From Utricularia gibba (taxonomy: Eukaryota > Streptophyta > Magnoliopsida > Lamiales > Lentibulariaceae), in the NCBI GenBank assembly GCA_002189035.1, contig CM007989.1, positions 6,367,501 to 6,431,500 of the forward strand: 64,000 nucleotides of DNA, given 5' to 3'. Below, one piece after another: positions 43,811 through 61,300 of the stretch. Within the stretch, counting starts at the first letter, position 1, and every line of letters starts with the position of its first letter. Below the pieces are notes generated by a model, which searched no databases, was not told the DNA's origin, and saw nothing but the letters and a program-made list of their open reading frames with translations. The position numbers and the translations under genes are program-made.

Positions 43811-45009
43811 AAATATATATGTGGTCTTGCTTTTTAAATTTAAATTTTTTATTTAACCTATTATGCAATTAAAATGGCATCAATAAGGAAAAAAGTCTAA
43901 GGTTAACAATTATTTATAATAATCATTACTATTTTTAAAAATTTAACCAATTCTTATTTATAAAAAATAATTTATAAGAATCAATTCAATTTTGTTAGAA
44001 ATTTGGGAGAGTAACTTTTATTAAGAATGCTTTCTTAAAATTGATTTTGAAATATAATTTTTTTCAAAGTCATTTTGAGATATAACTTTATAATTATAAA
44101 TATATTTTTTATAAAGAATTAAAAACATTATACTTATTTAAAATAAACTGTTGAAATATTTTTACTTTAAGCATTTTAAAAATATAAACTATATTATATA
44201 GATTTATATAATATTTTATAATATCAACTATTTATAAAATATGACTTTATAATTTATAAATTTATAAAATATCATTATTACAAATATAAGTAAATATATT
44301 ATTACTTATAAAAACCAATTTTTACACTCCAAATAAATCAATTATAGAATAATTATTCTTAAAAATAATTTAAATATTTTATCAATATTTTTAATTTTAT
44401 TAAAATTAATTTCGGGTTTTTTTTAAATATAAGCTAAATGTGGGCCTTCGTTAGATCCAGTCCACTAAACTGGGCCTCGATAAAGCTCATTGAATTTAGT
44501 AGAGATACTGAGATAATTGAGCGGGAGTAAATTTCAAAATAATGAATAATAAAATTCAATAATTTGCGAATTTAAAACATTAGATTCAGAAAACGGGTTT
44601 AGACAGGAGGGTGGTGAATGCTTGTCTCATTAATGGCGGTCTGACAAAAAATGTGCTAATGGGCTAGAGGTAGATTCATGCGCCTTGTGCAGAAAAATTT
44701 GAACTTCGTTTCTGGGTTTTTAAATCGAGGAATGTGAGTTATTGTTGACTGAGTATCCCTGTAAACGGTGGCTGGGTTTTGTTCATTTTGCTCCCCAGGT
44801 ACGATGACGATGACTACTCTGTTCGTCCTCGCAGCTTTTTTATGATAGTTTTTACTTCACTGTGGGTTAAGCAAAGTTATCATATTGTGAGGCGTGACCC
44901 ATTAAATTTGATGGGATTTAATGGGGAAATGTTTGTTGGGCGAGCTTCGGGTTGTGGTTTTAGAGATGAATATTGTGTAATGGAGGTGAAAATTTAACCG
45001 TGAATTAGG
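43811..45009. other. AT-rich intergenic DNA and FPP upstream region
   Basis: AT-rich to about 44.5 kb. 44.58-45.0 kb is balanced and probably the leader of the FPP gene. Confidence 0.4.
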
Positions 45010-46782
45010 ATGGACAAGAAGTGGCATTAGAAGGGAAGATCCTCGGAGAGAAGTTCATTTGACAACGGCAGCTCAGGGTCATCGCCTGTACATTCCAACA
45101 AGGATTGTGATGACCAGGTTAGCTCTCCCTATTGAGAACCTAAGAATTAAATAGGTCATTGTTTCGAAACTGTGATTCAGCGGTAGTAGAGTTTTTGTTG
45201 TTGTTTTTCTTTGTACTCTATGAGAAATTAGGATGAACAATATGGTGGCTGCAGCAGGAACCGTTTTTTCCGGAAGATAGAATGAGAAAAACTACAAAAG
45301 TTCTTCAAGAAAAGCTATCAGCTGCTCTGGTTAATGCTAATGCTAAAGAGGAACTGGTGAAGCAACATGCCAAAGTTGCTGAAGAGGTCATAGCTGGTGA
45401 TGCATTTCTGTCTGCAACTCAAATATGTTTTTTCTCAAAAAATATTTCGGGGATGAGACTGAAACCGTTTTTTGTATCGTAGGTTGGGAAGCTGCGGAAA
45501 ACCAAGTATCAAGTTTGAAGTTGCAGCTTGATGCAGCTGTAGAGCAAAACATGAATCTGGAATTCAGAGTCACTCATCATGATGCTGCCTTAAGGGAATG
45601 TGTGGCACAACATAGACAAGCGACAGCCAATGCTTGTTGTGATCCCAAATCCTGCCTCACTTTGCGAAGAGAGAACCTGTTTCTGAAAGAAGAGCTTGTT
45701 TCCAGAAGTAAGGACTTACAAGTTATTATATATGAGAGGGATCTAAGCATACAAGCAGCAGAAACTGCAAGGAAGCTGCAATTGGAAGCCATTAAAAAGG
45801 TCGCTAAGCTTGAGGCTAAAGTCCGAAGATTGCAGATTCTTAGTAGCAAACGATCAACTTCAAACGACAATAAGAGCGTAAATGCTGCCTACTTTTATGC
45901 TGATTCTTTTACAGATAGTCACTTGGATTGTGGGGAGGGGCAAGCACGATTGATACTGAAACTCTAGTGACTAGTAATATGGAACTGAACGTGTTGGATC
46001 AGAAATCTGCCAGCATGTGGGCTTCAACATTAATTACAGAGTTGGATCAATTCAAGAACGAGAAGCCTTCCATTGGAAGTATAAGAGCACATCCAATAGG
46101 AATCAATATAATGGATGATTTTCTTGAGATGGAGCGACTCGTAGGCTTACCTGACACTAAGAGCAACACACCGAATTTATCTTCATCTGGATCTCCCTGT
46201 GGAGAATCTGTTTCAATAGATAATCCCTCACTTGCCAACTCTGATGCAGCTTTTTGGAGAGTAATTGAACTGGAAAAGTTGGAGAATGTAGAAATGGAGA
46301 GAACACAGCTTGAGACAGATTTGTTTGAAACCCATGTTTCCTTGGATGAAGCCAAATCAACGTTACAAGATCTGCAAAATGCAGCATCTACAGAATCTCT
46401 ATCTCAGGTACTTGAAACAGAGCACGAAGCAGGGATAATATTAGGAAATGATGTGGAGAAGATAGAGAATGACAAGGAACAGAAGTCATCAATGAAGATT
46501 ATGGTTGGAGCACTAGATGAAGATGAACCACGACCAGCAACCAAAGTTGAGGAATCGGTGACTCATAAAACTGCTGCTGATAAGCTTGCAGAATGTCAAA
46601 AGACAATCGCTTCTCTTGGAAGACAACTTAAGTCTCTAGCAACTCTTGAAGATTTCTTGGTTGACACTTCGAACATATCAGGATTCTCCAGAAGCCAATC
46701 CATCTTAGCAACAAGTATAGCAAGTGATAAGAGTGGGAACCAGGAGAATAGCTATGAGCTAGCAAACCGTGTAACAAGTTGA
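45010..46782 (+). pseudogene. Filament-like plant protein (FPP) gene, short and damaged
   Basis: Three exons: 45010-45117, 45258-45396, 45483-46782. The opening reads MDKKWH, then TAG (45028-45030), then KGRSSERSS. Known FPPs start 'MDxRSWxWKKKSSEK', so the stop replaces a conserved Trp. Exon 2 gives the hallmark MRKTTKVLQEKLSAALVNAN. Exon 3 gives GWEAAENQVSSLKLQLDAAV, ERDLSIQAAETARK, SFTDSHLDCGEG, then in the next frame SMWASTLITELDQFKNEKP, FLEMERLVGLP, and near the end LAECQKTIASLGRQLKSLAT followed by EDFLVD. FPPs are long coiled-coil proteins of 600 residues or more. Here much of the central coil is missing (about 480 codons in all). The frame step lies near 45926-45940, and the exon sum from exon 3 is one base short. 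A protein could start at the ATG at 45282. I think it more likely non-functional. Confidence 0.65.
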
Positions 46783-47555
46783 ATACATTGAATTCTTTAC
46801 ATCATTGTGGAAGGGATATGCAAGTTCGATTCACAAAAGTAGAATATGGTAACTTCAAATTTGTTTCTTACATGATCACCATGCTGAAATGAACTGCATT
46901 AAAGATACAATTAACTTCTTTTGGTAGATCCTGTTTTGAATTCATGAAGCGTAGAGGCATGCATCTTGCTCAGATTGCTTTTTGCATCTTACATTTAAAG
47001 TGTAAATTGCAGCATCATTATATCAGTGTTTTAGCCGTCCCCTGTTTCAAGAATTACTCAAGGAAAACATAAAACAAGCTGTACTGAAAACACTGCCTCA
47101 AATGAAGATATCAACAAATTTTCATAGGGGAGCTGCGATGAGTGTTCAATGTTGCAGGGAATCAAGTTCATCTTTTTACAGAAGCATTTATCACCTTTTT
47201 CCCTTGATAAAAACATCTCCACTGGGATGCCTGCTGAACTTCTATCAATCAATAATATTAGAGATTTCAATGAGCTTGTGTGATGGTTCTTTCATAGGGG
47301 CCCATTTCTTGTTCAATACTGTTTTTATGTCGGCTATTTCATGTTCATTGCTTATCCTCATGAAGCAGATCTCGACCGACTGATGGGGCGTAAATCTCAT
47401 CAGATTCATCTTCTATGGATAAGCAGAGATGAACCTCTTTAGCTAATGAAAAAGCACTTGTTTTCCATCTAAGATGAAAATTCGTACTCATTGTTATTAA
47501 ATCAAAGCCTTTGAACTAAGGATTCTGCACATTGTTATTTATGTAAGGCTAGAAG
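46783..47555. other. Convergent intergenic region between FPP and the stress-protein gene
   Basis: Likely 3' flanks. A 93-codon open frame at 47102-47383 has no recognisable domain. Confidence 0.4.
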
Positions 47556-48355
47556 TTAGGCCAAGAGCCAGAAGTTCTTATGCCATCTGGTGCTAACGAG
47601 GTATCCACCGACACTACTGCTCTGCTTCCTCACTCCAATTGTTAAGCAATCGAATTTGTTGATGCACTGCTCGACAAAGTCATCCGCACTGCTCTTCAAG
47701 CACAAGCTGCCAAAGAAACAAACCAAAAGGATGTTGGCTTGAAAATTTGGGCTTTGGGAGTGAGCTCAATTCAAAGCATCAAATACTAACCATTTTAGGA
47801 AGAAAGAAGACTTCTTCTGACGCAAAACCAGCACCTTCACTTCCAGCTTCTTCACTTGGCTGATAACAGTAGCCATTTTTTGTCCTTGAATTACAAGTGC
47901 TTCCACTTCAACCTGCAAAAGTGTCTCATTTTTCAACCTCTACAAACAGGGCACAAGTAACACACTTGCAGCGTCAGATCCTTCTACAAGAGACCCAAAG
48001 TTAACCGAAAAACAGGACTGACCTCAGGCTTACAGGTCTTACAGAGTGAGCATAGCGAAGTAGCAAGCTGAGACGAAGACGAATCCTCAGAAGCAGAGAT
48101 GATCTGAAGAAGTGTCAAAATATCACCCCTTGTAGCAACATGAGTGAGAGCCCACATCATGGCTTGCTTAGAATGTGAAGACTGATCCACCAACACCATT
48201 ACTCTTTTCTTTGTCAGAAAACCAGTACTTCTATAGCTCCCATACATCTCCTTCATCCCTTCAAGAGTAGCACCACATTTTCCATCCTTATCCCATCTCC
48301 TGGATGCTGATTTCCATCTTTGGTTGTTGCTCAGTTGCCTTAGCAGTGAACCCAT
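47556..48355 (-). CDS. Universal stress protein (USP) domain protein
   Basis: Three exons (minus order): 48355-48023, 47912-47791, 47706-47556, 606 nt, 201 residues. The N-terminal 50 residues are basic (MGSLLRQLSNNQRWKSASRR). The USP fold then begins with RVMVLVDQSSHSKQAMMWAL and VATRGDILTLLQII, continues through EVEALVIQGQKMATVISQV and ends with CLTIGVRKQSSSVGGYLVST plus RWHKNFWLLA. The classic ATP-binding G-x2-G-x9-GS motif is not evident, so it is the plant adenine-nucleotide-alpha-hydrolase-like type without a clear nucleotide loop. Role in stress signalling is family-level knowledge only. A very long GA run lies 180 bp upstream of the start codon. Confidence 0.85.
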
Positions 48356-48530
48356 TTTCCCCCACCACCTGAGTTCTTTCTCCCTCTGCTCATCAGTTCA
48401 TTTGCACTACGGCGTATTTAAGCATGTCGCACCTCCTCTGAGTGATGATTCGGAAGATAGAGACAAAAAAATATCGGGCGCTACAAGAATGAAAAAAAAA
48501 ACAGGCTCCTTTCAAACGCAATTACAGATT

Positions 48531-48606
<76 letters not shown>

Positions 48607-49098
48607 GGATTACTTAAACACAACCCAACGGGATTACTTAAACACAACCCAACTTTTTTATTTACTTTGCAACCCACATGGATGAAAAAATCGAGGAACT
48701 CAGTTAGAATTACTTAAACACTCAACCTCTTGAATAATCCTCCCAAGTTAGGCAAACATTCTTTTAAAAATGGGATTACATTTTAAACCATCACAAGCCT
48801 TGGAATCCGTGTGCACACGTGAAAGTAGCAGAGCAGAGAACGGGAATCCGCATTGATGTTGTATTGTATCTCTTGCATGTAGCATGGCAAATGGACCCAA
48901 AGTTTCATGTAGTTTTTTTAGGAGCTTTCGATTCGGAGTACAGATTTAAAAAAAAAAAAAGTGGCGCCCTCTACTCTATCATTGCTACGTTGAAGGTGTT
49001 GCCAATTGCTGTGGGAAACTTAAGATAAGAGACTTTTGTCTGGTTTTCTCATCAGGACCAACGAGAAAAATGACAGGAACAAAAAGCCTTCTACCTTT
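48356..49098. other. USP upstream region
   Basis: Contains the GA microsatellite and a 24-bp tandem duplication (GGGATTACTTAAACACAACC...) at 48605-48652, with a partial third copy near 48710. No gene recognised. Confidence 0.45.
48534..48602. repeat. (GA)n microsatellite, about 34 units
   Basis: An uninterrupted GA/AG run of about 69 bases upstream of the USP start codon (on the other strand, a CT run in the probable leader or promoter). Confidence 0.95.
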
Positions 49099-49388
49099 AC
49101 GAAGCATCTCAGTGAACCCATACCCGTAATATGCTGCCGAGCAAGTGTAGACAGCTCGAAGTTCAAAGCAGAAGCCTAGTCACCGGAAAGCCACCACAAT
49201 CTATTCTGGGGCACGAAAGATCATGTGAAATGAACCAAATTCCTGAGAGTGCATCATCTGATGGCGCAACGCAGCTAAAAATAACATTCTTCAAATGCTT
49301 ATTCAAGATCTTGTCTCTCTATCCCGATTATGTTTACCCAGTAAATTTTGAAATATGAGCATTTGTCTCCATCCAAATTTGAGAGATG
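49099..49388 (+). repeat. Left direct repeat flanking the minisatellite (290 bp)
   Basis: Begins ACGAAGCATCTCAGTGAACC and ends CAAATTTGAGAGATG. It aligns end to end with 52709-52992 in direct orientation. The only length differences I find are two 3-bp gaps. Confidence 0.9.
49131..49358 (+). CDS. Hypothetical 75-codon open frame in the left repeat
   Basis: Starts MLPSKCRQLEVQ and ends YVYPVNFEI. I recognise no family. The matching frame in the right repeat (52741-52962) is also open, and both length differences between the copies are multiples of three. A stop lies a few codons upstream of the ATG in both copies. It may be a real short gene, a former exon, or chance. Confidence 0.25.
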   Translation: MLPSKCRQLEVQSRSLVTGKPPQSILGHERSCEMNQIPESASSDGATQLKITFFKCLFKILSLYPDYVYPVNFEI

Positions 49389-49611
49389 ACTAATTTGAGG
49401 ATATTCCTATATTTATTCTCGCAATTGATTTAAAAATAAAGATTCAATTTTCAAATCACCCCACCAAACCCATTTCAGAATGGAGTAGATGTTGATTCAG
49501 ATGCTCATCAAAACTCGATTACCTGAACTACTTCTCCCTCATACTAACCAATAGGATTCGATAGTGGCCTTTAAAAGGGTATCTAGACCACAAGATACCA
49601 ATGGGGTTGGT

Positions 49612-52600
49612 GGCTACCCCGCCCAAACCACACCTTCCAACATGGCCAGCCCGCAACATCTAATCGGATCCAGCCCACACCTACAACCGGCCCAAATCAC
49701 ATCTTCTAACCGGCTCAACACACACCTTCAAATCGGCCCCGCCCACACCCTCTAATCAACCCAGCCCAAACCATTTACCGGATCCAATCAACACCTTCTA
49801 CCCAGCCCAACCCATACCTTCTGACAGGCTTAAGCCACACCATCTACCAGGATCCAGCTCACACATACAATCGGCCCAACCCAAACCTACAATCGGCCCA
49901 ACCCACACCTACAACCCGGCCCAACCCACACGTTCTAACCGGCACAACACACACCTTTTATCTGGGCCAGCCCACACATTCTAACCGGACCAAGCCCACA
50001 CCAACAACCGACCCAACCCAAACCTTATAACCGGCCCATTCCACAACATCTAACCAAATCCAGCCCACACCTACAACCGGCCCAACCCACACCTTCTAAC
50101 CGGTTGAGTTCATACGACCAGCCCAACCCATACCTTCTACAACCAGCCCAATCCAGACCTACAATCGACCCAACCCATACCTTATAACCGGCCCAAACCA
50201 CACCATTTAACCGATCCAGCCACACCCACAACCAGCCCAACCCACACCTACAACCAGCCCAGCTCACACCTTCAAAAAGGCCCACTCCACACCATCAAAA
50301 AAGATCCAGCCCACACCTACAACCGGCCCAATCCATGCCTACAACCGGCTCAACCCACATCTTCTAACAAGCTCGACCCACACCTAAAACCGGATCCAGC
50401 CCAACCCACCTACAAACCGGCCCAAAAAAACAGCTTCTGACCGGCCCACTCTACACCATCTAACCGGATCCAGCCCACACCTACAACCGGCACAACCCAC
50501 ACCTTCTAACCGACCCAACCCACACCTTCTAACCGGCTGAGCTCACACGACCAGCCCAACCCACACCTACAACCAGCTCAACCCAAAACTTCTACAACCG
50601 GCCCAATCCACACTAAAACCAGACCAACCCACAACTACAACCAGCCCAGCCCACACCTACTACTAGGGCCACTTCACACCATCCAACCAGATTCAGACAC
50701 ACCTAAAACCGGCCCAAACCACACATTCTATACGACACAACCCACACCTTTCAACCGACCAACCAACATCTTCTAATCGGCCCAACCCACACATACTACC
50801 GGCCCAACCCACACCTTCTACAACCGACCCAATACACACCAACAACCGACTCAACCCACACCTTATAACCAGCCCAGCCCACACCATTTACCAGATCCAG
50901 CCACACATAACACCAGCCCAACCCACACCTACAACCAGCTCAGCCCACACCTTCTAATAGGCCCACTCCATACCATCTAACAAGATCCAGCCCACACCTA
51001 CAACCGGCTCAACCCACACCTTCTAACCGACTCAACCGATACCTTCTAACCGACCCAGCCCACACCATCTAACCAGATCCAGCTCGCACCTACGACCGGC
51101 CCAACCCACACCTTTTAACCGACCCAACACACACCTTCTAACCGGCCCAACTCACACTTACACTTACAACCGGCCCAACCCACACCTTCTACCCGACCCA
51201 GCCCACATCTTCCAACTGATCCAACCCACACCTTCCAACCAACCCAGCACACTCCTTCTAACAGGCCAAGCCCACACCTTCTAACCGAATCAAGCCCAAA
51301 TCATCTAACCGGATCCAGCACACACCTACAATCGGCCCAATAAAAGCCTACAACCGGCCCAACCCAACACGAAAATCTTTGAAATATTCTGAATCATTCA
51401 TGAACATCACCAATAAAAAAAAGAAAAACATGTTGATTCGGCATTTTCTCGTGGGGTCAAATAAAGAAGAATGTCGGCCCAACCGACACCTTCTAACCGA
51501 CCAAGCCCACACCATCTCCGAATCCAGCCCAAACCTACAACCGGCCCAGCCCACCCCTACAACCGGCCCAACCGATATCTTCTAACCGGCCAAGCCCACA
51601 CCATCTCCGGATCCAGCCCACACGTACAACTGGATCCAACCCACACCTACAAACCAGCCTAACCCACACAAACTAACAGGCTCAGTCCACACCTACAACC
51701 GGCCAACCCACCTTCTAACTGGCCCACGCCCAAACCTTCTAACCGGCCAAGCCCACACCATCTACCGGATCCAGCCCAAGTATACACCCGGATCCAGCCC
51801 ACACCTACAAACAGCCCAACCCACACCTACAACTCGGCCCAACGCACACATTCTAACCGGCCCATTCCACACCTTCTAACCGGATCCAGACCACACCTAC
51901 AACCAGCTCAACCCACACCTTCTATAACCGGCCCAGTCCACACCTACAACCGACCCAGCCCACACCTTCTAACCGGATCAGCCCACACCATTTACCAGAT
52001 CCAGACCACACATACAACCAGCCCAACCCACACCTACGACCAGCCCAACCCACACCTTCTAAGAGGCCCAGTCCACACCATCTAACCGGATCCAGCTCAC
52101 ACCTACAACCGGCCCTACCCATACTTTCTAACCGACCCAGCCCACATCTTCTAACTGACCCAACCGACACCTTCTAACCGGTCAAGCCCACACCAGCTAC
52201 CGGATCCCGCCCACACCTACAACCAGCCCAACTCACACCTACAACCGGCCCAACCCACACTTTGTAACCGGCCAAGCCCACACCATCTACCGGATCCAGC
52301 TCACACTTACAATCAGCCCAACCTACAGCTACAACCCGGCTCAACTCACACCTTCTAACAGGCTCAGTCCACACCATTTAACAGGATGCAACCCACACCT
52401 ACAACCAGCCCATCCCACACCTATAACCCCGGCCCAACCCAAACCTACACTACGGACCAGCCCACACCTCCAATCCGGCCCATTCCACACCATCTAATCG
52501 TCCCCGCCCACACCATGTACCGGATCCAGCCCACACCTACAACCGGCACAACCCACACCTCCAATCCGGCCCATTCTACACCTTTTTTCCGGCTGAGCCC

Positions 52601-52708
52601 ACACCATGCACCGGATCCAGTCCACACCTTCAACCAGCCCAGCTCACACCTTCTACCCGACCCAACCCACCCCTACAGCCGACCCAGCCTACACCTTTTA
52701 ACCGGCCC
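49612..52708. repeat. C-rich minisatellite array, 22-24 bp units, about 3.1 kb
   Basis: Well over one hundred head-to-tail variants of a unit such as CCCAACCCACACCTTCTAACCGG, alternating with CCCACACCTACAACCGG- and CCGGATCCAG-containing versions. The plus strand is rich in C and A and poor in G, giving strong strand asymmetry. Units differ by substitutions and small length changes, so the array is old or exchanging unequally. It is broken once by unique DNA at about 51371-51475. It generates many open frames on both strands with no biological look. Confidence 0.95.
51371..51475. other. Unique AT-rich insert inside the minisatellite
   Basis: About 105 bp unrelated to the repeat unit, from CACGAAAATC to GAATGTCGG. 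No target duplication that I can define. Possibly an insertion or a remnant of the pre-array sequence. Confidence 0.6.
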
Positions 52709-52992
52709 ACGAAGCATCTCAGTGAACCCATACCCGTAATATGCTGCCGAGCAAGTGTAAGCTGGAAGTTCAAAGCAGAAGCCCAGTCACTGGAAAGCCA
52801 CAATTTATTCTGGGGCATGAAAGACCATGTGAAATGAACCAAATTCCACATAGTGCTTCATCTGGTGGCGCAAGGCAGCTTAAAAGAACATTCTTCAAAT
52901 GCTTGTTCAAGATGTTGTCTCTCTTTCCGGATTTTGTTTACCCGGTAAATTTTGAAATATGACCATCTGTCTCCATCCAAATTTGAGAGATG
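52709..52992 (+). repeat. Right direct repeat flanking the minisatellite (284 bp)
   Basis: Direct copy of 49099-49388. It follows the last repeat unit without a gap (…CCGGCCC then ACGAAGCATC). Confidence 0.9.
52741..52962 (+). CDS. Hypothetical 73-codon open frame in the right repeat
   Basis: Counterpart of the frame at 49131-49358: MLPSKCKLEVQ ... FVYPVNFEI, one residue shorter at each of two places. No family recognised. Confidence 0.25.
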   Translation: MLPSKCKLEVQSRSPVTGKPQFILGHERPCEMNQIPHSASSGGARQLKRTFFKCLFKMLSLFPDFVYPVNFEI

Positions 52993-54654
52993 CCTATATA
53001 TCGAATTGACCCTTGTTTAACGTCCCTCTGCTAATCATTCTTGGAATCTTAGTTTTAATCAATTAAATTCCTTAATATTTTAAGTATAATTTTTTTTATA
53101 TAAAAAACAGAAAAATACATATGATAATCTTGAGATATTTAACAAGATAACCAACTGTCAAAAAGGTAATTAGAAAATGCTTAACTTTACAAAGTTCATT
53201 TATAAACAGCTATCTTTTTCTTTATTAATTCATGAGAAATCATTTTTTCAAATATAACCTCAAATTTTTTATTTTCATAAAAAGATATATACTAATATCA
53301 TAAGAATCACTCTTGGCATCCAATATGTGTATATATTAAATGTTTCTCACATTTAGAAATCAATTGATATCTTTTTATTAAATAAATTATTTCGTATGTA
53401 CTTCAATTTCTTTCACATCTTGAAAAAGAAAAGACATGATAAAACAATTTTAATGATATTTCTTGAATTATTAGAATTTTTCTACCATAACTTATCCATA
53501 ATTAGATTGATGATAACTTTGATTTTGTTAAAATAGAATCTAATTTACCAAAATCTCCTAAAAATCTATAAATTTTACAAGCTCACCTTTTTCAAAAATT
53601 AAATAATCTATATTATTGAAAAAACATATGAAAAACACATCAACAAGTATATCAATATTTTCATAAACTTCTAGTGATATCAAGTGAGGATGTTCTTTTT
53701 TGTATTATGGTGATGCAATCCTACAAGAAATAAGTTGCAAGTTTATGACTAAACATCAAGTAAATAATAAAAATAATTTGCATATCTTGGGTTTAAAGTA
53801 TGGTCAACAATGTATGCTTTAGTCAAACTTTGTTTCTTTATACACAACAAAAAATTATGTATAGTGTTCTATAATATATTCTTATCATTACTAAAAGATA
53901 TAAATAGTTTTTCCAATATTATAAATCATCAACCCATATATAATAAATCAAATGAAGACATGATGCATTTGTATCAGAATCTTTATATCTTAGATGAATA
54001 CCATTGGTAATGAAGTTCATAAAAATAAAAAATAAACAAAAATAATGAAACAAACAAGGTAAAACTTTTATATTTTTATTTATATCACTTTTATGTTTAT
54101 TAGAGTTTATAAAAAAATTCCAATCAATTAATTAGAGTTTATATATTAAAAAATTATTAAAACTAAAAAACAGAGGATACTCATCCGATACTCTTAAAGT
54201 TAGGGTATTTTAACAAACTGTTTTGTTGTTTTGACTTAATAACATTAATAATGAAATTGACAAATATTAATAATTAAATAATTAAAATAAAAATGTTTAT
54301 ATCCTAAATGGATTTAATAATAATTAAAATAACGGATAAGAAAAATAATTAACAATAATAAAAATTAAAAGTTTTATATGTTGATTTTATACTATTTATA
54401 AATATTTAAATTCAAGTATTTTTAATTTCTAAATATGATTTATAATTCGAGCTTGAAATATCAATGTAAATATCTAATGTAAAAAATATATTATTTTATT
54501 GGATTTTTTTTAATGCTTCATATTAATCTAATATTTCAAAACGAAGGAAAAATAGGTATCTTATGGTCAAAATTGCATGCCGTCCGTACGGGTTTTGCTT
54601 ACAGCACTGGGCTATGTACGCGCCATTGACCACCAGTAACCTCAGCACTTGAAA
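52993..54654. other. Intergenic, AT-rich
   Basis: Strongly AT-rich. An open frame at 53810-54010 shows no domain. Possibly decayed transposon DNA, but nothing I can support. Confidence 0.45.
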
Positions 54655-57600
54655 TCAACTGATGAGATCGCCCGGCTGCCACCGTGACGGAGCGCTACAT
54701 CCAGTAGATTCAGACGCGTGTGTATCTGCATAGGGCTGTCGGAAACACTGCGCATCATCCATTCTCGCGACTGAGTTCGGAGGAACTGCCGCCTGCATAT
54801 CATCATCCATTATCGCGACCGAGTTTGGAGGAACTGCCGCCTGCATATCATCATCCACTTCTTCATATGGAGGAGCTGCAGTGGGGCTGCGAGCTTCGGC
54901 AGCGTCTTGCTTTTGGACATCGCAGTGAAAATTCGAATCAGATGCAGGCGTTCCTCGCATCGATTGTCCGGCCAGAATAGGCTTCTGCAACATGTCGACT
55001 CCTGGGAATGCAATGAGGCTCATATACTTCATTTCTAGCCTCTTGGATTCCTCAAGTGGGACGAATCCGAATACGTTGGTCCATGTATCATTGAGCTCGG
55101 ATATTGCTGGGATAACAAGTTTCTCTACGCCAAGTGAGCTGAGAACCTGATGACAATTTGAGCAGATGTTGCAGTTGCTGAGATGAAGCGAGAAATCATG
55201 AAGACCTTGGAAACATAATGAGAAGGCGTACCTTTTCAATGGCACCTAGAAGCCGACTGCACATCCCTTGACGGCGGTAGATATGCCGAGTTCCTATGAA
55301 CGGCATCTCAGCCAGTGGACTCCCGTGAATTCTGTTTCCAGTATCATGGAACAGGGTCAGTGATTACGGCCCTCAGAATGCAGGAATTTGCAGCACAAAA
55401 CCCAGGAGTTTCTTTTGATTTTTCGAATGGAAGCACAAAGAACTCAAACTAGAGAGCCTTTGAACTGGAAAAGCAGCAGTGTCAAAGAATGGAAGTGGTA
55501 ATAAGAAGGATCCTGAGAGTAAGTTGACCTGATAGATGCAGCAGACACAAATTCATCGCCCTTCTCTAGGATAACAGTAAGAAATCTCTCAAAGTTTAGC
55601 CTTCTAATGTTTGACCTGAGAGCAAAAATGAAGAGATATCACTGCAATTTAAGCTCCCACAAAAACAGAGGAGATACGGCAGATTTTCGACGGTGAACTA
55701 CTCACCCACAGCTGTACACTACGTTGTGAATTACGCTAGAACCACTCCGCTCATCTGTTATGGGTTGAAAGCATTCATCCATGATATTGAAAGCAACAGC
55801 TAACTTTGAATTATTCTCTAAGGATGAGATGTCACCATCCAGGGACACCTTGGGAGTGAAATTGCGAAACTGAAGGACTGTGTAGGAAAAACCTTCCTCG
55901 AGTTCAGTTCTGAAGCCAACAAGATCCTTCAACTTCTGGGAAATCTGTATGCAAAAGATAAATATCGGTAACAGGAGAAACTATAGGAAAATTGTACGAG
56001 GCAAACATGCCCTTATGAGAACTGCTAGATCATACCTGAGCAGCATCTAAAACAGATCAAAGTAACAATACTAAAAAACTCGAAAGATAAGTTTTTTAGA
56101 ATTCGGGGCAAGAAGAATACTCCCTTTCCATGCGTAAGATCACACAAAACTCATACCTTATAGCATGCCTCTCCACAAAAGGACAGGCTTCCTTCCTCAG
56201 CAGTCATCTCGATGGTGCAATCCACATGAACTAGAGAAGTAGACAGTTCAATATATTTATTGTTGGAATCTTAAGAAGGGTGCAAAAACTATAGACCCTT
56301 GATGACCAAGGGAATAAAGCACAGGCTCACATTTCTCATCACACATATGGCACCCAATTAACTTATTCCTATCTGAGGGTTCTTCTGCAGTCCCGCAGAA
56401 CTTGCAGGAACAGTAAACGCAGTGCCAATCTCCAGATGGAACCTGCAGCCAACAATATAGAATTCTAAGTTAAGGGTGTATTTCCATAGTTGCTTAGCAC
56501 CACGAATGCATACGTTATCACATTCAAAGAATTAAATAAATCTAAAAAAATAATCTTTAACAACAACGGCCAAAGCAACAAAAAGGCAATTCGGTGCGCA
56601 ATGCATACATCAATGTGTAAACAGCCATGATGGAAGGTTGATGGACAACTATCGCAACAGATAAGGTTGCCACCATCGCCACAGACATTACATGTGTCAT
56701 CGTTGGGATCATCACCATCCACATCAACATATGCAAACCCAATGTCATCAGCTTCCACGTGTTTCTTCCAGGAATCAACAAGGCATTGGTACAGAGAGTT
56801 ACCAGAATCCAGATAAATGTTCTCATACGGTTTTCCATGCATGCTTCCGGCATGAGACTCAAAACCCTTGATCGTATGCAATATATTACAACAATTACAA
56901 CGGATTCCATCTTGTTCAATTGTCCCTTCACGCAGCATCTTTTTACACCTTCCTCTCATATATTTCACTTTTCCACTAACAGGAACAGTTCCATGATCAA
57001 TCATCCAAGATAGCAATGAGCGCTTTCCATGATATACCCCAAAACCATCGTTGTCAGATACATCTTTGGGTCTACGGGCCAACAAAGTTCGTTGTTTGCC
57101 TATGGTACATCCTGATGTGGTCTTGATACTTTTTTTGTTAGCTTTCTTGCCTCTCCCATCGGCTCTAAACAGCAAGCTAAGCGTCTCCTCTGGTATTGGG
57201 ACAAATGCCAAAATATCTTCCTCATTTGCATTTCCATGATCAATCTTCTCTTTGAATTTTTTGTAGGCCAATGTAATTGACCAGTAGCATTTTCCCTCGC
57301 GATCAACATAAACAGCATCATGGTAATCTTTGGATTGCCTTCGCCTGTATTCCACAGACCACCCAGCACTTTTGAGCATAGCAAGTATACTGTCCCTCAA
57401 AAGTTGTTTCTCTTCATTACGCCTCAAATTCGTTTGTTTAGCAAATTTAGCTCTTCCCGGTTCCCCTGTCATGGTGCCATGCTGTGAAGCGTCTGAACTG
57501 CGCGTGAACATCTTCTTTGGTCCAGTTTTTGCAGATTCTCGATTATCACAATATTTCTCATCATCATCATCCTCAGTCATCGACCTCACATTTTCTTTCA

Positions 57601-58315
57601 AAGCCTTGGGAGGCCTTCCTAGCTGTCGCTCCCACTTAAGCTTTCCTGGATCTCTGCAGATGCGGTTACTCTTCCGATAGGCCTCCAGCTGCCCCACTTC
57701 AATATCCTCACAAATTAAAACGGAATCCACAAGTTTATCTTGCTTTTTGGGAGGTCTCCCCCGCTTATGATTAACTGGTGCATTTATATTAGAAACATCC
57801 TTTCTGGAATCCAATTTTGGAGGCTTTCCCCTCTTATTCTTTTTCATCTTCCTGCGAGGTAGTATGGGAGCCACCTCAGTATCAGACATGACTTTTCGTG
57901 GTCTCCCCCTTTTTCTCTTCTCTCTATGAACTAGTGGTGAAGCCTCAGCCTCAGGCCCAGGGTCAGGCTCCAGTTTAGAATCTTCTTTTTGAGGCCTCCC
58001 CCTCTTACCCAATATCTTTATCTCACTCAGTGGATCAATTATCACTCTTTCATCCCTATCCTCTAATCCAGAAGCCTCATTTGCAGGCTTATCCTCCATA
58101 CTAACTATCTCCATCTTAATCACTTGCTTTTCCCCGTCACTCATAGCCACCGTCCTCGATCTCAAAACCCTGCCTTGCTTAACTACACCGTCCGGCCGAT
58201 CCCACCCACCATCACCCACAACGTTTCTCTCCATCTTCTTACGTTTTCTCTCCACCGGCAGTTTGTTCAAGTCGATCGACTCATCTTCACCTTCAGGGCT
58301 ACTATCCGCACTCAT
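54655..58315 (-). CDS. IDM1-like chromatin protein: AT-hooks, PHD finger(s), GNAT acetyltransferase fold
   Basis: Seven exons (minus order): 58315-56609, 56442-56331, 56230-56157, 55944-55706, 55615-55529, 55331-55232, 55146-54655; 2811 nt, 936 residues. The start [12 protein letters not shown] is chosen over an in-frame ATG 51 nt upstream. The N-terminal third has five AT-hook-like cores (KRGRPQK, KRGRPRK, KRGKPPK, KRGRPPK, LGRPPK). A conserved block follows ([31 protein letters not shown]) and the segment [23 protein letters not shown]1 starts near residue 543 ([16 protein letters not shown]). A second Cys/His unit (CKFCGT ... CHMCDEKFH) follows, then a GNAT region with [23 protein letters not shown]1 in Arabidopsis acetylates histone H3 to guide active DNA demethylation. 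By homology this protein would read and acetylate chromatin. The C-terminus holds a 16-residue tandem repeat. Confidence 0.88.
54753..54856 (-). repeat. 48-bp in-frame tandem repeat in the IDM1-like C-terminus
   Basis: Two full copies plus the start of a third (offsets 54753, 54801, 54849), encoding [13 protein letters not shown]-type units of 16 residues in the coding strand. Confidence 0.9.
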
Positions 58316-61300
58316 TCTCCCCGATCGACACATAAAACACCCACCCCAAATCGTGATTCCTACCAAATAAACCCCAAAGTAAGTTATCCAGAAGCGAAAA
58401 CCTAAAACAATAAAGGGATGCTTGATCTGGAGAGAAAAAGAAAATATATATGATGTATCACCTACGCCTCAAGCAAGAGCAACCGTCACCAACATTGCGG
58501 CCTCTGCCGTCCTACACCCTGAAGTAGCCAGAGTGTGTATCCACTTCATCGTACAGCCTCGCACAATACCAAAATCCGAAGCGCATTGAGCGAGAATCCG
58601 ATCAGGAAACAGGGTTTTATGGCGGCTTTTTGGGGAAGAAAATCATTCTCATAGACACGGTTTCAATTTTGCCTTCCCTTTTATTTGCTTTCTTTTATCC
58701 TCCAAGGACAACGGGGGGAGTCCCTCGCAGGAACGCTTTTATCGTCGAAATTTCCCTCCAATTTATTCTTTTTCTCTAAAGAAAAGAAAACTTTTGAATT
58801 ACGGTACCAGTTTTTTAAATATTATTTATTTGACATGGAATTACAATTCGTTATATTATTTTATTCCAGAAATAAAATAAAGGAAAAACTTCAACTGTTA
58901 TTCATTAAATTACAAAGTATTTATGTAATAAAATTTAATAAATTTAAAAATAATATACACAATTTCATATCGTTCTGAAAAATCAAACAGAATCTTCACT
59001 AGACAAATCAGCAATATAATAAAGTCATATACTAAATATCTCGTAGTCGACATCTTTGCAAGAAAATGATAAAATTGGAAGATTATTACATGAGTAAACC
59101 AAATCCAATTTATTTGTTGTTGTGAACTATGAATCAATTAGCGGTAATCTTTGTCGATTAGTGAAATATTCTCATTGCTTTGAAAATATGGTGACATTCA
59201 ATATAATTCATTGGTTCTTCTTTCATCAATATTTTTCTTTAATGATCAGGATAATACTCTTTTCAAAAGGTTGATTTCAAATTTGAAAAATGTCAAGCTG
59301 TAAATGAACAATTGTGAGAAGATGATTAACACAAAAATATAGTAGTATTGCATTATATTAGAAAATTTTCATTGAAGGATGAAACAACAATATACATTAG
59401 ATTCAACAAATGCATAATAGCATGTAGAAGATGATTAACACTTTATAGTCCCAACAACATCTCAAAAAACTATACTACCTTGTGTTGTTTGATAAGGATT
59501 TATTGAAAATCTAATATACTGTGCTATCAAGGTATCTCATATTTCATAAATTAAACTAAAATATGTTAATTTATGGGTATGGATTCGACTCCTCAACTTA
59601 TGGGGTGAATCAGATGAGTCAATTTTTAAACATATATGGCTTGTTATGTAAACATAATTTCTTGACATGATTCCGTTTAATTTTTTAAGATTCTAATCTT
59701 TGACTCTTTTATAGTAAAATCAGAAATTCAAATTCTGTGATTAACTTCAAAAATTGTTGAATATATGTTTCAGAGATTAAATAAGAAATTAATTATAAAA
59801 ATTATATTGTTCACTTTTTATTTATTCTAAAAATACATTTATATCATAATATTAAATTATATAATAATATAATATATTAAACTTTATAATATATTTTATT
59901 TTATTAATACTTATAATATAATTTTATTTTATCCTACAAAAAAATTTACAATCTAAAACTGATTCTATTCAAACAATCTCAAAACTTAGTCTATTCTACA
60001 TCATCTGAATCAAAAATTTAAAACACAGAACATGCGCATAACTCAATTGGGAATTCATTCCCTTACAATTGATCTTGGGCTAATTGATATGGGCCAGGAA
60101 GGTCTGCGCCAGGCTCATGCTCCATTAGCGCTCATGTGGTCATTCTCTTCAATTCCCCACATCATTTCACTCCTACTCCCATCCATAAAGCGTCGACCCA
60201 TTACTTCTAGACGGGGGCCCCGATCCTTATTAAGTATTCACCTTTTTGTCTCCAAATTCAATCACTCATTCATATTTAAAAAACTACTGTAATTAAGAAG
60301 CACATGTCACATAATTAAAATCATATCATATTTAATAAATGTATTTAGAATAAATACAAAAACAATCAAACTCATAATTGAAAAAAAATCATGTGAAAAA
60401 TGAACATTAAAAAACATCATTAAATAAATTATATCTTTAACAGATACTTATGGATAGGCATAGACAAATTCACCAACACACACGAACTTATACTACAGAT
60501 TAATCATGTTCAGTACAAATCCTAAAATATTTTAAGCTATTATTAGAATACGTCGATTAATCAGAAAAAATTAAAAACAATTGGCACCACACCGATCAAT
60601 GTGCCGGTCTTCACTTCCACCCTAGGGATCAATTTGCCCAACATTCCAATAACAACGACATGTTTGAATTTTCAAGTGTGAAACCTCAGGCAGCTGAGCA
60701 ACCAACCACTCCCTATGGGACAAAATAATGCAGCCCAATGAGACCGATGCTTGTCGACCCTGATTTTTTATTGCTACTTCAATTTGGGTTGGTGACCCAA
60801 CGGCTGCATAACGACAATCAGGCATCACTGGCCTCACACAATCAATAGGCCGTTCGCAACTCCCCGGTTTAAAAGTTCAGTTATTATGAACTGCCCTTGC
60901 ATCTTCACTATTAATATGAGGATTAAATAACAAACGAATTATTTACCTCATCAGGCCTCCATGCCACTAACAGAAGCAATGTCTTGACAAGATGAAGAAG
61001 AAGATTCAGAATGGACATAAGCAAATGCATACGAGCAGTTTGCAGGGTATTCAATCAAAAGGCGTGAAACATGCTGCACATATTAGCTTTACGTGTAAAG
61101 ATAAGTATGGAGGCATGGTGGGGTTGGGTTGGAGCATGATTAGAGTCCTAGAAGGAGGATAATGCGCAACCCCACCACAGCCAGGCATCGGACGGAAAGC
61201 GGCAAGCTTGCATCACATATCTATTCGTGTTCAGATAGGTGATGGCATTGTGTGGCAACATTGGTGTGTTAATGGGTGCAAGTGAAAAGAAGTTGCAAGC

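Follow-up and report, generated by a model that had tools for sequence, protein, structure and literature searches.

How does a large array of short tandem repeats come to stand between two genes, and does it grow in place or arrive from outside? This question is raised by a C-rich array in the nuclear genome of Utricularia gibba, which lies within the 64,000-nucleotide stretch analyzed here (the window; contig C1:6367501-6431500) and for which we searched 100 Mb of the plant's genome sequence in 516 contigs. The array occupies the spacer between a universal stress protein-like (USP) gene and an IDM1-like gene, and it is framed by two copies of a sequence of about 0.29 kb, here called F. The order, proceeding from USP to the IDM1-like gene, is the left copy of F (F_L), a patch, the left part of the array, an interruption, the right part of the array, and the right copy of F (F_R) (Table 1). 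F_L is located 0.74 kb from the USP start codon (ATG at 48355), and the IDM1-like stop codon, which was checked at 54655, lies 1.66 kb past F_R. An earlier, sequence-only reading had described a C-rich array of 22-24 bp units with a direct repeat of about 0.29 kb on either side, one of the two abutting the array, and this description is both real and accurately placed: decomposition yields about 130 units and F_R is the abutting copy, while 227 bp stand between F_L and the array. That reading did not include the copy of this 227 bp spacer found on contig C451, the break in the array at 51369-51478, or the three unit types described below.

Table 1. Features of the spacer between the USP and IDM1-like genes and of the genes themselves (positions are those of the window).
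Feature	Position	Strand	Basis
USP-like gene, first coding exon	47984..48355	-	Pfam Usp PF00582, E 3.5e-6
F_L, left copy of the putatively duplicated break-site sequence	49099..49391		90% to F_R, 70% to F of C412
Patch, 227 bp	49392..49618		91% copy at C451:955974-956200
C-rich array, left part, ~75 units of 22-24 bp	49619..51368		TRF and decomposition
Plastid-derived scrap, ndhG antisense	51369..51431		87% to contig C516
Non-repeat DNA inside the array, 47 bp	51432..51478		No second match in genome
C-rich array, right part, ~54 units, ends exactly at F_R	51479..52709		TRF and decomposition
F_R, right copy of the putatively duplicated break-site sequence	52709..52992		Direct repeat of F_L
IDM1-like gene (PHD finger / TDBD / IDM1_C)	54655..58468	-	Pfam TDBD E 1.5e-17, IDM1_C E 6.4e-17

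Several smaller observations concern the surroundings of the array. Directly 5' of the USP coding sequence, 48534-48653 combines an uninterrupted (GA)35 repeat with an exact 24 bp duplication, and close to the IDM1-like C terminus there is a 48 bp in-frame tandem duplication (54753-54857), of which the IDM1-like copy on contig C412 seemingly has one unit. No Rfam families were found at 44000-60000 and no tRNAs in the window.

By TRF, the repeats form a single array at 49670-52709 with a period of 23, 134 copies, and 64% matches, whereas decomposition resolves 133 pieces, 130 of which are near-full units, with a mean match of 81% to the consensus CCAACCCACACCTTCTAACCGGC. The modes of unit length are 23 and 22 bp, which places the array among the minisatellites (tandem units of ~10-100 bp). 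Three unit types recur, and the distances between units dip slightly at lag 4, i.e. there is a weak four-unit periodicity. The plus strand is 45.5% C, 31% A, 13% T, and 10.0% G (GC skew -0.64); consequently, the strand bias toward C noted previously is borne out, but "almost free of G" overstates it. In its short unit and tandem arrangement, the array resembles ordinary degenerate plant minisatellites. It differs from examples such as the Beta vulgaris families, as outlined in PMC2820488, in being confined to a single locus in the sequence searched, strongly strand-biased, and flanked directly by duplicated sequence of that locus. A proposed search for the unit elsewhere in the genome came back negative, as all 29 matches to a 24-base unit core (at most three mismatches) fell at this locus and a DNA search found no other copy of the array, and hence no donor, in the 100 Mb and 516 contigs. 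The 10% difference between the flanks, the 19% deviation of the units from their consensus, and the unique plastid scrap are not what would be expected of a duplicated or collapsed assembly segment, as judged from this one assembly. Two other identities were considered and rejected for the array. As for coding potential, the long open frames are attributed to the C-rich composition, and with units of 22-25 bp the reading frame shifts along the array. Likewise, a weak 70% match to a haloarchaeal plasmid, covering 9% of the query, is taken as compositional.

The most informative comparison is with a paralogous block on contig C412, which preserves the order of the window across FPP, USP with the region upstream of it, F, and the IDM1-like gene. 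There, F is present once, with neither the array nor a second F, and the IDM1 stop codon is separated from the USP ATG by 1.15 kb as opposed to 6.3 kb here. As read from the two blocks, the flank did duplicate locally, since C412 has one F and the window has two; to this extent, the earlier suggestion of a segment duplication holds. The 49022-49099 segment, which adjoins F_L on the USP side, is also kept in C412. This conserved border indicates that F is old locus DNA rather than the terminal repeat of a mobile element. The last ~100 bp of F are not recognizable in C412, and on the IDM1 side beyond F the two blocks no longer align, except just beside the IDM1 gene; C412 thus serves as an array-free arrangement rather than as the precise empty site. 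F differs from its C412 counterpart by about 27-30%, whereas F_L and F_R are separated by a K80 of only 0.085 +/- 0.018, so the duplication took place after the blocks had separated.

What lies between the two copies of F is of mixed origin. The insert starts exactly at the end of F_L and stops exactly at the start of F_R, and its first component, the patch, begins at the base right after F_L. The patch is shared with an unrelated nuclear locus on C451, upstream of genes for tRNA-Ala and kinesin, from which it differs by a K80 of 0.094 +/- 0.021. AAATTTGAG is present near the end of F and again close to where the patch begins in C451, which is possibly microhomology between the junction partners. 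The polarity of the copying was sought in paralogs of C451; the best kinesin paralog, on contig C304, shares only coding sequence and is uninformative on the patch. Within the patch, near-perfect 13 bp inverted ends, CACCAAACCCATT and AATGGGGTTGGTG, were seen by eye at 49464-49613, which may point to an old MITE-like piece in the patch.

Further along, the array is interrupted by non-repeat DNA that includes a fragment of plastid ndhG (E 2.7e-13). Its source is represented by C516, a 172,489 bp plastid contig with intact ndhA, ndhI, ndhG, ndhE, and psaC, and the alignment of 73 columns contains 3 transitions and 5 transversions. Being a significant match to the same plant's plastid genome, the fragment is a NUPT. 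It may have been added in a separate, later event. The same ndhG stretch has further nuclear matches at C244:1331156-1331205 and C321:135581-135636, apparently independent plastid-derived insertions. For the adjoining 47 bp no source was found, and a 29-mer from them, allowing up to three mismatches, had no second match in the genome.

If the array had expanded recently, or were still exchanging between its flanks, at least some of its internal duplications should be younger than F. This is not what the divergences suggest. Arbitrary registers of the array yield pairwise K80 values of about 0.22-0.33, and even the youngest long internal duplications yield 0.144-0.155, which contradicts the idea that the array grew by unequal exchange between the flanks. 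Among segments of at least 200 bp, no pair reaches 92% identity ungapped and none is less diverged than the flanks; ungapped matches of at least 92% are only 60-100 bp long. Since no long duplication within the array clearly postdates that of the flanks, neither recent growth nor ongoing exchange between the flanks is supported. The excess divergence of the array lies mostly in transitions, as might be expected for methylated cytosines, and with transversions only, the young array duplications (0.05-0.067) are comparable to F (0.046 +/- 0.012). The best reading is that the array is now static, with no detectable growth since insertion and with point changes accumulating; the absence of recent duplicates in this one assembly also predicts low variability in array length.

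Based upon these features, we consider the locus to be an old break-repair insertion between the IDM1-like and USP genes, in which the break site was duplicated and ectopic filler was captured (a probability of roughly 60%). This is supported by several observations: 1) C412 has one F and no array, 2) F is old locus sequence that is directly repeated on either side of the insert, 3) the borders of the insert coincide with those of F, 4) the insert contains ectopic as well as plastid DNA, and 5) the divergences of F and the patch agree (0.085 and 0.094), such that a single event fits both the duplication of F and the arrival of the patch. Mechanistically, two staggered nicks ~290 bp apart, or an equivalent overhang, would have been followed by fill-in on both sides of the break, thus duplicating F. 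Ectopic segments would then have been copied or joined in as filler before ligation, in a presumed order of capture, with C451 the putative donor of the patch. As for the array, it could have been ready-made filler from a donor elsewhere, or short filler could have been expanded into it while the event took place or shortly afterward, both routes being conjectural. The stronger version, that a complete and already diverged minisatellite was transplanted as break filler and the array was born without any local growth from a seed, is a possible but tentative proposal.

According to a rival scenario, which is unlikely despite some points of agreement, a tandem duplication of F came first, and slippage and unequal exchange subsequently enlarged a short seed into the array between the two copies. 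The flanks are direct, the three unit types and the lag-4 minimum speak in its favor, and internal multi-unit duplications of 230-320 bp demonstrate that unequal multi-unit steps did occur. However, no seed resembling the unit was detected above the level of shuffles in F, the patch, the surroundings of the C451 copy, or the spacer of the paralogous block. The interior also begins with DNA that recurs at an unrelated locus, and the interior expansion that had been proposed originally is thus unsupported. The array register pairs are also far more diverged than the flanks. In its plainest form, a tandem duplication of F plus spacer, this scenario is rejected, as it would require the DNA after F_R to resemble that after F_L, whereas the right-hand sequence has no match to the patch and the similarity between the two is reached in 164 of 200 shuffles.

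It is more doubtful still that the array first arose beside a single F and that the patch and a further copy of F were gained through a later break at its edge. The greater divergence of the array relative to the flanks would be explained in this manner, but C412 lacks an array, two events are needed where one suffices, and the excess divergence is mostly due to transitions, with the transversions of the youngest duplications matching F within error.

That the array functions upstream of USP in regulation or structure formation, either through TCP/site II motifs or through quadruplexes or R-loops on the G-rich strand, appears very improbable. The array contains 83 TGGGCY motifs (site II / TCP-like), or 26.9/kb as compared with 0.70/kb in the rest of the window (38x), yet this count follows from the copying of one unit. 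Another 16 motifs are GGATCC; both motifs owe their great excess over shuffles to the repetition of the unit. The unusual DNA structure anticipated by the sequence-only reading finds partial agreement, as 62% of the G-rich strand falls within two-G-tract quadruplex motifs, versus 39% +/- 3% in shuffles, and the orientation of both neighboring genes is the one in which RNA of the array would be G-rich. However, three-G-tract motifs cover only 18 nt, which makes the quadruplex potential modest. Moreover, the array exhibits no sign of homogenization or conservation and is absent from the paralogous C412 locus. On sequence grounds, a functional claim for the array is not supported. Lastly, a transposable element carrying the array, with F as its terminal repeats, would account for direct repeats around an interior but is most improbable, given that F is found twice here and once, diverged, beside conserved neighbors in C412, and that the array occurs at one locus only. 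An LTR retrotransposon specifically was rejected, as the ends are ACGAAG..GAGATG rather than TG..CA, no short target duplication is visible, and F is single in C412.

Break repair of the kind proposed here has precedents. In rice, patch-repair tandem duplications are common and mostly <125 bp, with a tail extending to kilobases (PMC7971508), and small tandem duplications have been demonstrated to arise in cells of mouse and human when overhangs are filled in ahead of end joining (PMC8355091). Foreign filler at rice transposon-excision breaks averages 13 bp with a range of 1-123 bp (PMC4423477), polymerase theta makes templated insertions in Arabidopsis (PMC10923293), and organellar DNA has been documented as break filler (PMC7037861). 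Measured against these precedents (mostly <125 bp in PMC7971508 and at most 123 bp of filler in PMC4423477), a 290 bp duplication and a 3.3 kb insert are large. The locus resembles patch-mediated tandem duplications (Vaughn and Bennetzen 2014; Schiml et al. 2016, as summarized in PMC7971508) in the duplication of a break site around new DNA and in its origin independent of a transposable element, while differing in its ~290 bp unit (usually <125), its 3.3 kb insert with a minisatellite, and its age (K80 0.085). To the extent summarized in PMC4423477, ectopic fillers (Wicker et al. 2010) are paralleled by the 227 bp shared segment located exactly at the junction and by a decayed DNA transposon remnant nearby, although the patch exceeds the 1-123 bp range of such fillers and its copying from C451 to C1 is putative. 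Similarly, the joining of a short plastid fragment to unrelated DNA is comparable to NUPT filler (PMC7037861), except that the fragment is only ~63 bp and is found inside a minisatellite. The transposon remnant is a decayed hAT-type sequence at 53262-53976, beyond F_R. Related sequences occur at C2:3201680 and at C451:5122877, the second of which has DUF659 and a borderline hAT dimerization match. The remnant shows that a break-making element was once nearby, and no more than that.

Thus, the locus is an example of a known process and not a new kind of element. Its cause is likely ordinary in kind, and what is unusual is its size and the material captured. The origin of single-locus minisatellites is usually unclear, because the state preceding the array has been lost. 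Here, C412 displays an array-free arrangement, the duplicated flanks provide a clock, and two identifiable scraps of outside DNA point to break repair. If confirmed in related species, this would constitute a dated instance in which break repair brought a large repeat array into the spacer between two genes.
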